The notes under the pieces: generated by a model
Databases searched by the model: none
Seen by the model: only the letters and a program-made list of their open reading frames with translations
What the model was told of the DNA's origin: nothing
Made by a program: the position numbers and the translations under genes
Shown here: piece after piece, positions 10,904-13,098 of the stretch
How positions within the stretch are numbered: the stretch's first letter is position 1
Layout of the letters: every line of letters begins with the position of its first letter
DNA from: Parabacteroides sp. AM08-6
GTDB lineage: Bacteria; Bacteroidota; Bacteroidia; Bacteroidales; Tannerellaceae
Direction of reading: 5' to 3'
Assembly: GCF_003473295.1 (NCBI RefSeq)
Contig: NZ_QRMP01000033.1
Coordinates: 1 to 19,693 of the forward strand
DNA: 19,693 bases

Positions 10904-10911
10904 TATCTTTG
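10904..10911 (+). promoter_or_regulatory. -7 box of queC
   Basis: TATCTTTG is a full match to TAnnTTTG. The expected transcription start is near 10917, giving a leader of about 60 bases. The leader begins with an 8-bp hairpin, AAAAGGAA / TTCCTTTT (10917-10924 with 10928-10935), which directly abuts the predicted preQ1 aptamer. Confidence 0.65.
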
Positions 10912-10935
10912 CAATGAAAAGGAACATTTCCTTTT

Positions 10936-10969
10936 CCGTGTGCTTGCTAAACCACGTATTAAAAACAAG
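10936..10969 (+). ncRNA. Candidate preQ1-I riboswitch in the queC leader
   Basis: The segment aligns without gaps to the 34-nt preQ1-I aptamer of Bacillus subtilis queC. P1 is CGUG/CACG (10937-10940 with 10953-10956). The 12-nt loop UGCUUGCUAAAC (10941-10952) has exactly the family length and agrees at 9 of 12 positions. An A-rich tail (10958-10965) follows, and then CAAG (10966-10969), which pairs perfectly with CUUG (10943-10946) to make the P2 pseudoknot. Residues that contact the ligand in the known structure are present: the counterpart of U6 is U10941, C17 is C10952, and A29/A30 are A10964/A10965. Position 10/32 shows a compensatory change (A-U to U-A). The queC ATG follows 7 nt later, so ligand-induced folding would most simply hide the start region (translational control). 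The gene context (preQ1 synthesis) fits. P1 is short (4 bp), which is the weakest point. Confidence 0.8.
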
Positions 10970-10975
10970 AAAAAT

Positions 10976-11650
10976 ATGAAACATCAAGAAGCCGCTTTGG
11001 TTTGCTTCTCCGGTGGACAAGATTCCACAACCTGCCTATTCTGGGCAAAGAAGCATTTTAAACGTGTAGAAACGGTCTGTTTTACTTACGGACAAAAACA
11101 TTCTCTGGAAATTGAAGTAGCACGAAAAATTGCCGCCAATGCAGAAGTACCTTTCCATTTGCTGGATGTATCACTGATAAGCCAGCTTGACTCCAATTGC
11201 TCGTTGACTAATACAACGATGACTATGGATCAGGAAAAGCCTGCTGATAGTTATCCGAATACATTCGTTCCGGGCAGAAATATGGTGTTCCTGACTTTTG
11301 CAGCCATTCTGGCACGGAGTAAAGGAATTTTCAATTTAGTAACCGGGGTATCTGAAGCAGATTTTAGCGGCTATCCGGATTGTCGGGATACCTTCATCCG
11401 TTCTTTGAATGTTACGTTGAATCTGGCTATGGATGAACAATTTGTCATTTACACACCTTTAATGAACCGGGATAAAAGCGAGGTTTGGGAACTTTCGGAT
11501 CAATTGGGTGTATTTGAGTTAGTCCGGACACAAACACTGACCTGCTATAACGGTGTCCCGGCAGAAGGTTGCGGGCACTGCCCGGCCTGTAAACTTCGTA
11601 AAGAAGGCTTAGAAAAATATCTCAAACGGAAATCATTAAAAAACAACTGA
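10976..11650 (+). CDS. queC: 7-cyano-7-deazaguanine synthase QueC
   Basis: Cytoplasmic ATP-dependent enzyme that converts 7-carboxy-7-deazaguanine and ammonia to preQ0 in queuosine biosynthesis. The PP-loop ATP pyrophosphatase motif SGGQDST is at residues 12-18. [17 protein letters not shown] and [12 protein letters not shown] are typical QueC blocks. The C-terminal zinc site is complete, with four cysteines in TCYNG and [10 protein letters not shown]. The start at 10976 gives 224 residues beginning [17 protein letters not shown]. The longer in-frame start at 10940 is rejected because it lies inside the leader aptamer and adds a basic, non-conserved dozen residues. queF follows 64 bp downstream on the same strand with no evident terminator or TAnnTTTG box between, so the two are probably one operon under the leader riboswitch. 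Confidence 0.95.
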
Positions 11651-11714: not shown

Positions 11715-12182
11715 ATGGATACCAGAAAAGAAGAAAACGAACTCCACCTTTTGGGAGGTTCTACTGTATACAAACAAGATTATGCTCCGGAAGTATTGGA
11801 GGCATTCACGAATAAACATCCGGAAAATGATTACTGGGTACATTTCAACTGTCCTGAGTTTACGAGCCTCTGCCCTATTACCGGACAACCGGATTTTGCA
11901 ACTATTTATATCGACTACATACCTGATATAAAAATGGTAGAAAGCAAAAGTCTGAAATTATACCTGTTCAGTTTCCGAAATCATGGTGCATTCCATGAAG
12001 ATTGTGTAAATATCATCATGAAAGACCTGATAGCATTAATGGAGCCCAAATACATAGAAATAACAGGAATCTTTACGCCACGTGGCGGCATAAGTATTTA
12101 TCCTTATTGTAATTATGGCCGTCCGGGAAGTAAATATGAACAGTTAGCAGAGCAACGTCTTTTTAATCATAAAAGCATCTGA
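11715..12182 (+). CDS. queF: NADPH-dependent preQ0 reductase QueF (type I)
   Basis: Reduces the nitrile of preQ0 to the aminomethyl of preQ1 using two NADPH, the step after QueC. At 155 residues it is the short, single-domain (tunnelling-fold) type I form found in Bacillus. The covalent-catalysis cysteine is Cys53 in [11 protein letters not shown] and the acid is Asp60, close to the positions in the B. subtilis enzyme. The QueF signature [22 protein letters not shown] lies around residues 76-97 and provides NADPH-binding residues. [13 protein letters not shown] is also characteristic. The start is the first ATG of the frame and matches the expected N-terminal length. queD and queE are not in the window. 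Confidence 0.95.
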
Positions 12183-13062: not shown

Positions 13063-13098
13063 AAAAAAAGAGAAGCAGATTTTTGCTTCTCTTTTTTT
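13063..13098. terminator. Bidirectional terminator between DUF1080 gene and dnaX
   Basis: A 15-bp perfect stem (13063-13077 with 13084-13098) with A7 on one side and T7 on the other should terminate transcription in both directions. It overlaps the dnaX stop codon (13097-13099), so the last bases of dnaX are part of the hairpin. Confidence 0.9.

Follow-up and report, generated by a model that had tools for sequence, protein, structure and literature searches.

The leader of queC-queF in Parabacteroides sp. AM08-6 probably contains a class-I, type-II preQ1 riboswitch which represses translation of these genes by covering an A-rich start region, a reading to which we assign a probability of about 0.82. 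We infer its ligand, its direction and the regulated step from what can be read directly: sequence, conservation, covariation, gene neighbourhood, spacing and the scarcity of Shine-Dalgarno sequences. Judged from sequence comparison, the leader RNA is very probably a real sensor of a queuosine precursor, and repression appears to operate by covering the start region itself; we take that region to be the hidden part since the ribosomes of Bacteroidota work without Shine-Dalgarno pairing. The window (the whole stretch of DNA analysed, 19,693 nt) has the following features in and around this leader:

10904-10911, forward strand: TATCTTTG, a match by sequence to the Bacteroidetes -7 promoter box TAnnTTTG
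10916-10936, forward strand: P0, a 9-bp hairpin of the predicted fold, GAAAAGGAA-CAT-TTCCTTTTC, directly abutting P1
10937-10969, forward strand: putative preQ1-I type-II aptamer (P1, P2, A-rich L3), from models R1 and R2 and 82 distinct homologous cores
10937-10956, forward strand: P1, CGTG (10937-10940) with CACG (10953-10956), with two-sided changes at pairs 1, 2 and 3 over the 82 cores
10943-10969, forward strand: P2 pseudoknot, CTTG (10943-10946) with CAAG (10966-10969), with C-G to A-U and U-A to C-G changes in relatives
10952, forward strand: the C of the type-II AC motif (10951-10952), AC standing 5' of the P1 3' strand in 82/82 cores
10961-10965, forward strand: A-tract of L3, at -15 to -11 relative to the queC ATG, from A-position counts in element leaders
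10970-10975, forward strand: spacer AAAAAT, 6 nt, with no Shine-Dalgarno in its sequence
10976-11650, forward strand: queC, 7-cyano-7-deazaguanine (preQ0) synthase (TIGR00364, 243.8 bits, cut-off 150.3)
11715-12182, forward strand: queF, preQ1 synthase (TIGR03139, 173.7 bits, cut-off 86.9)

Read directly, positions 10936-10969 are CCGTGTGCTTGCTAAACCACGTATTAAAAACAAG. The first-pass annotation had described a 34-nt element here, 7 nt before the queC ATG: the 4-bp P1, 12-nt loop (10941-10952, inside P1), A-rich stretch and CUUG/CAAG P2 that it listed are all present, but only 33 nt (10937-10969) belong to the H-type pseudoknot arrangement, base 10936 being the last base of P0 (10916-10936) in the predicted fold and outside P1, and the gap is 6 nt, with the ATG at 10976. 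The compensatory pair that it placed at aptamer positions 10/32, which we take to be B. subtilis aptamer numbering, was borne out as A-U in the Bacillus leader L069 and U-A in the window. Its naming of the downstream genes was equally sound, as queC and queF both score over their NCBIfam cut-offs; queF is probably the second gene of the queC unit, with which it would be co-transcribed. The P1 closing pair G10940-C10953 is expected to form the floor of the ligand pocket, and C10952, by analogy with the role described in PMC11625349, is expected to be the Watson-Crick partner of preQ1 (this and the other papers cited here were available in part, and what we take from them is confined to those parts). 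The upstream TATCTTTG conforms to the published Bacteroidetes -7 box consensus (PMC7366714), and the queC mRNA would start at about 10914-10918.

QueC is present in 83 of 118 genomes sampled from the family that includes L001, an uncultured Parabacteroides whose QueC is 84% identical to that of the window (other relatives reach up to 92%). Readable leaders from the family numbered 76, being 73 of the 74 loci L111-L184 plus L001-L003; L132, which is the same place as L001, and seven of the 83 QueC-positive genomes (fragments, weak paralogue matches) were left out. A loose pattern recovered the element in 52 of the 76 queC leaders, in agreement with the expectation that P1 and P2 pairing would be kept in relatives, and the remaining 24 lack it in recognisable form. 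One of these 24, L139, still has both halves of P1 and of P2, starting 81 nt upstream of queC, with some 45 nt inserted in loop L2, and could tell whether L2 tolerates an extra domain. In others of the 24, queC has a different setting: in genome G021, for example, it is yhhQ (L209) that the element precedes.

Alignment A1, of 34 leaders with a mean identity of 90%, has two two-sided changes in P1, a count that is slightly too low since MAFFT misplaced L158 in it, and a P2 that hardly varies. Because P2 is nearly constant among the family queC leaders, covariation was sought in a wider set: 134 elements, none of which failed to parse, yielded 82 distinct cores. P1 pair 1 is CG in 66 cores, AT in 10, GC in three and TG in one, and is unpaired in two; pair 2 is GC in 81 and AT in one; pair 3 is TA in 68 and AT in 14; and pair 4 is GC in all 82. 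The first pair of P2 is CG in 77 cores, AT in two and TG in one, and unpaired in two; the second is TA in 76, CG in three, TG in one and CA in two; the third is TA in 75 and A.A in seven; and the fourth is GC throughout. Standard pairs are thus found in 80, 82, 82 and 82 of the 82 cores along P1 and in 80, 80, 75 and 82 along P2, with two-sided changes at three of the four P1 pairs and two of the four P2 pairs, counted as sequences and not as independent events. These pair counts are biased towards the structure, since the parser sought good pairing and the pattern and R1, which supplied the elements, both prefer CTTG/CAAG; but the raw sequences themselves clearly show the exchanges in P1 and, in L251 and L255, the change from C-G to A-U at the first P2 pair. 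In these two loci AUUG/CAAU stands in place of CUUG/CAAG, both partners having been exchanged cleanly. Of the seven A.A cores (CYAG with CARG), most belong to loci that bear the name Bacteroides or Mediterranea, and another P2 mismatch occurs in four of the 82 cores, two of which also have A.A at pair 3.

Model R1 was trained on queC leaders only. Its training set, A1, includes the window, and that of the second model, R2, holds a core identical to that of the window, so the scores of both on the window are circular. What tests the models independently is placement, as read from sequence, before yhhQ and queD, genes outside the training. Over 393 genomes of the order, R1 matched 61 at E<=0.1 and none of the other 332, listing 73 places; only 17 candidates per genome were scored, so weak elements may be missed and the true share is uncertain. 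At E<=0.003 there were 57 places, 54 of them outside the training set, and 57/57 lie before queC (10) or the transporter gene yhhQ (47; YhhQ/COG1738). The 16 places at E 0.003-0.1 are followed by yhhQ in four cases, queD in one and neither in 11. An NCBIfam check on examples covered two of the transporters (TIGR00697) and the QueD. Among 29 Bacteroidales queC loci, R1 matched 17 at E<=0.1, and 16 of these matches precede a transporter gene which itself precedes queC. G001, G024, G031, G184, G192, G244, G289, G380 and G447 have two copies each, of which one precedes queC or queD and the other the transporter gene, which in these genomes is a small predicted queuosine regulon.

R2 at E<=0.05 matched 60 of the 393 order genomes and added seven new places (G142, G165, G183, G203, G311, G442, G460). 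Elements of the Bacteroides type score low with R1 (for example 16 bits for L011), and L011 and L020 were counted as elements despite R1 E-values of 0.5 and 0.73, as they lie before yhhQ and parse. A wide spread in the phylum was considered and rejected: R1 at E<=0.003 matched four of 395 phylum genomes (G001, G024, G288, G447), all of them also in the order sample, and R2 at E<=0.05 matched seven, with two weak places (G183, G778) and otherwise the same confinement. The best match of R1 on 48 Firmicutes queC loci had an E-value of 0.26, which is chance level. The first-pass assignment to the preQ1-I riboswitches gains from P1 and P2 kept through compensatory changes, contact bases invariant, and sites before queC, yhhQ and, once, queD.

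The RF00522 covariance model, which the first-pass annotation had proposed as a check, went the other way: its cut-off (a gathering score of 39 bits) was not reached in the window or its relatives, and the best score in the window was 9.9 bits, misplaced, on a 51-nt piece. Neither the whole window nor a 121-nt piece matched at E<=10. The Bacteroidales relatives L021 and L014 score 10.8 and 13.1 bits, and over whole genomes none of 10 exceeded the cut-off, with one of 14 control genomes over it; six elements in G001, G002, G003, G006 and G009 lie under none of the weak RF00522 matches listed, at most 150 candidates per genome having been scored. As a positive control, four of 11 Firmicutes queC loci score 40-50 bits. 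The first-pass annotation had named the lack of a covariance-model hit as one of three refuting results. This failure is a matter of the reach of one detection model and is no structural feature; we do not count it as a refutation because comparison and R1 recover the element. Folding alone is weak evidence for the element: when 10912-10990 was shuffled 200 times, nine of the shuffled sequences equalled or bettered the native one in the energy model. Plain folding yields P0 and P1 only, and was not taken as proof because pseudoknots are beyond it.

Two other structured stretches occur in the window. At 582-667 there is a large inverted repeat, with 37-nt arms (582-618 and 631-667) that are 92% complementary and 12 nt apart; it is made of direct repeats at 21-bp spacing, lies upstream of a dnaK-like ORF (ATG at 937) and has weak microRNA matches far below the Rfam cut-offs. 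At 13063-13098 a terminator-like hairpin with a T-run stands between convergent ORFs, with weak matches to STnc40 and mir-1252.

The spacing between element and gene bears on the step at which the element would act. From the end of P2 to the ATG there are 1-10 nt in 117 of 125 distinct leaders, with a mode of 4 for the transporter and 6 for queC. Since a terminator would not fit ahead of the gene in any of these 117, attenuation was rejected as a general rule and translation is the likely regulated step. A preQ1 riboswitch that instead acts on transcription, by attenuation or early termination as the B. subtilis queC element does, is an improbable reading of the window's leader. It draws on the fact that the studied B. 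subtilis element is itself of type II and acts on transcription (PMC11625349, available text), and on eight distinct queC leaders in which the element lies 69-169 nt upstream, with room for a platform; yet no clear platform is seen in these eight, whose minimum-energy folds, inspected by eye, have no clear hairpin followed by a T-run. The long queC leaders are those of L150, L151, L169, L172, L204, L210, L231, L233 and L234, and L172 has a short frame 1 nt after the pseudoknot.

Upstream of P1, TAnnTTYG occurs within 70 nt in 106 of 123 distinct leaders, against 6.3% in base-shuffled controls, and lies only 2-9 nt from P1 in 19 leaders. A hairpin scoring at least 14 abuts P1 in 61 of the 123, against 4.3% in base-shuffled and in slid controls; leaders too short for the stretch needed were left out of both counts. 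By these sequence features the leader often seems to be little more than the aptamer, about half with a hairpin abutting P1.

The contact bases and class motifs bear on the ligand. All 82 cores have U6, the specificity C, the floor G-C and an A just 5' of the P2 tail (the parser required U6, C and a CA at the tail start), and these are the class-I ligand contacts according to PMC11625349 (L3 A included; available text). The same source separates type II, with AC before the P1 3' strand, from type I, with UC, and from type III, with UU beside the P1 5' strand and an AAGG Shine-Dalgarno in P2. AC stands before the P1 3' strand in 82/82 cores, under a parser with a slight preference for AC; U is followed by G or A in nearly all (UU in L251 and L255), and the P2 3' strand is CAAG, followed mostly by A. 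The AC motif together with the U and G or A in nearly all cores therefore gives type II, and types I and III were rejected on these bases beside P1 and P2. The features of class I are likewise present: the H-type pseudoknot with P1, a loop-tail P2 and an A-rich L3 in the 82 cores, and a location at queuosine genes at 57/57 strong places. It is quite unlikely that the fold is right and the ligand is another deazapurine (preQ0, queuine) or a guanine-like base; such a ligand would suit targets which are preQ0 synthesis and queuosine-precursor uptake genes, and loop L2 and the base after U6 do differ from the Bacillus leader, but the invariant set of contacts is that of class-I preQ1 aptamers.

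The remaining part of a translational preQ1 riboswitch, the hidden sequence, would differ from the usual one. In the window, positions -20 to -1 of queC have no AGGA, GGAG or GAGG, and no Shine-Dalgarno is there to be hidden. SD-like tetramers are about equally rare in element leaders (11 of 117, most of these overlapping the pseudoknot end) and in other leaders of the same loci (26 of 324, where the start was taken as the first ATG of frames of at least 200 residues and some starts are wrong). The A-tract of L3 falls at -11 to -13, with A in 95, 94 and 87% of leaders, and 98 of 117 element leaders have A at -12 as well as at -13, compared with 84 of 324 others. Spacings of 4-7 nt, which 90 of the 117 have, place the A-tract on -12/-13 in nearly all leaders; a 10-nt spacing would also give A at -12/-13, with other As. 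Such a fit would be expected of an A-tract that serves aptamer and ribosome alike, and is a correlation in sequences whose aptamer needs the A-tract anyway. Adenines at -3, -6, -12 and -13 favour initiation in Flavobacterium johnsoniae, for which a bS1 contact with -12 to -15 has been proposed (PMC6847099, available text), and Bacteroidia ribosomes fail to recognise Shine-Dalgarno sequences (PMC9976891, likewise). The earlier suggestion that the A-rich stretch 5' of the ATG is the target thus gains support from the A-tract, mostly at -11 to -13, and from the absence of an SD-like tetramer in 106 of the 117 leaders. Without the pseudoknot, the predicted unpaired probability over the 117 leaders is highest at -13 to -11 (0.81-0.84), which in these predictions agrees with a leader that is open when no ligand is bound. 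Values at the AUG are lower (0.38-0.57), and a longer predicted fold of the window has the AUG in weak pairing with the stretch that follows P1, also in the ligand-free state.

A 5' hairpin can protect an mRNA, which counts towards reading the element as a protein-binding site or as a translation-enhancing or mRNA-stabilising leader without a ligand. We regard that as very unlikely even with A-rich leaders known to promote initiation in Flavobacterium (PMC6847099, available text), as an enhancer leaves unexplained why two interleaved helices change in a compensatory way, why loop bases are invariant and why the element is restricted to queuosine genes.

A translational preQ1 riboswitch would work as follows. 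The aptamer and its start-site hairpin would make up almost all of the queC-queF 5' leader, with P0 perhaps stacked on P1 or shielding the 5' end. With preQ1 (or preQ0) in short supply, the A-tract, CAAG, spacer and AUG would be open and the 30S subunit would load on the A-rich region. At high levels of preQ1, the ligand would pair with C10952 between P1 and P2, P2 would close and the L3 adenines would dock on P1 in the ligand-bound form. The compact knot, ending 6 nt before the AUG, would block initiation, and less preQ0 and preQ1 would be made; before yhhQ, the element would limit uptake. What is hidden would be the A-rich region used for initiation (-11 to -15), together with the space beside the AUG. 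Going one step further, we give even odds to the proposal that the Bacteroidales preQ1 aptamer is the ribosome-loading site itself, its L3 A-tract, docked on P1 with ligand, doubling as the A-rich enhancer (-11 to -15, the proposed bS1 site) which replaces the Shine-Dalgarno in this phylum. If true, this would be a riboswitch working on an initiation pathway that makes no use of the anti-Shine-Dalgarno, in a leader of roughly a start-site hairpin and an aptamer. At 33 nt it could be a genetically simple system for studying control of initiation by RNA structure in Bacteroidia, and for asking if A-rich leaders truly act as a binding site. The element further suggests that RF00522-based annotation overlooks a queuosine regulon in one of the major groups of gut bacteria, among which sharing of queuosine precursors has been proposed (PMC6593275, available text).

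The first-pass annotation was fair in calling these riboswitches best described in Firmicutes, but a review from 2024 (PMC11625349, available text) already reports type I from phyla including Bacteroidota and a similar distribution for type II, so membership of the element in a known class is not new. The new part is the expression platform without a Shine-Dalgarno: translational preQ1 riboswitches are explained in that review by hiding of the Shine-Dalgarno, and the available text of PMC11625349, PMC3766115, PMC2258182, PMC6593275 and PMC11089507 has no description of a Bacteroidales preQ1 element without one. Among the titles listed in searches of a collection of open-licence PMC papers none is on it, a scope which leaves most subscription papers outside, including the type-II survey, and which is no proof that it is unpublished.

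Among known systems, the Bacillales queC leaders with RF00522 hits (L069, L039, L051, L032) likewise lie before queC, and L069 has, as the window does, a G-C-closed P1, U6, a loop ending in AC, an A-rich L3 and a loop pseudoknot. They differ in P2, which is CUAG/CUAA in L069 (UUCUAG in the loop, ACUAAGG in the tail) and CUUG/CAAG in the window; in the distance from the aptamer end to queC, about 125-220 nt in the four Bacillales loci against 6 nt to the ATG in the window; and in RF00522 score, 40-50 bits against 9.9. The type-II preQ1-I riboswitch of Thermoanaerobacter tengcongensis controls translation with a compact pseudoknot, as we propose for the window, but its P2 buries two Shine-Dalgarno bases (PMC11625349, available text), whereas the queC leader of the window has no Shine-Dalgarno. 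The type-III element of E. coli yhhQ, as far as the sources available in part describe it, has an AAGG Shine-Dalgarno in P2 and UU beside P1, where the Bacteroidales cores have CAAG, with A after it in most, and, in nearly all, a U with G or A after it.
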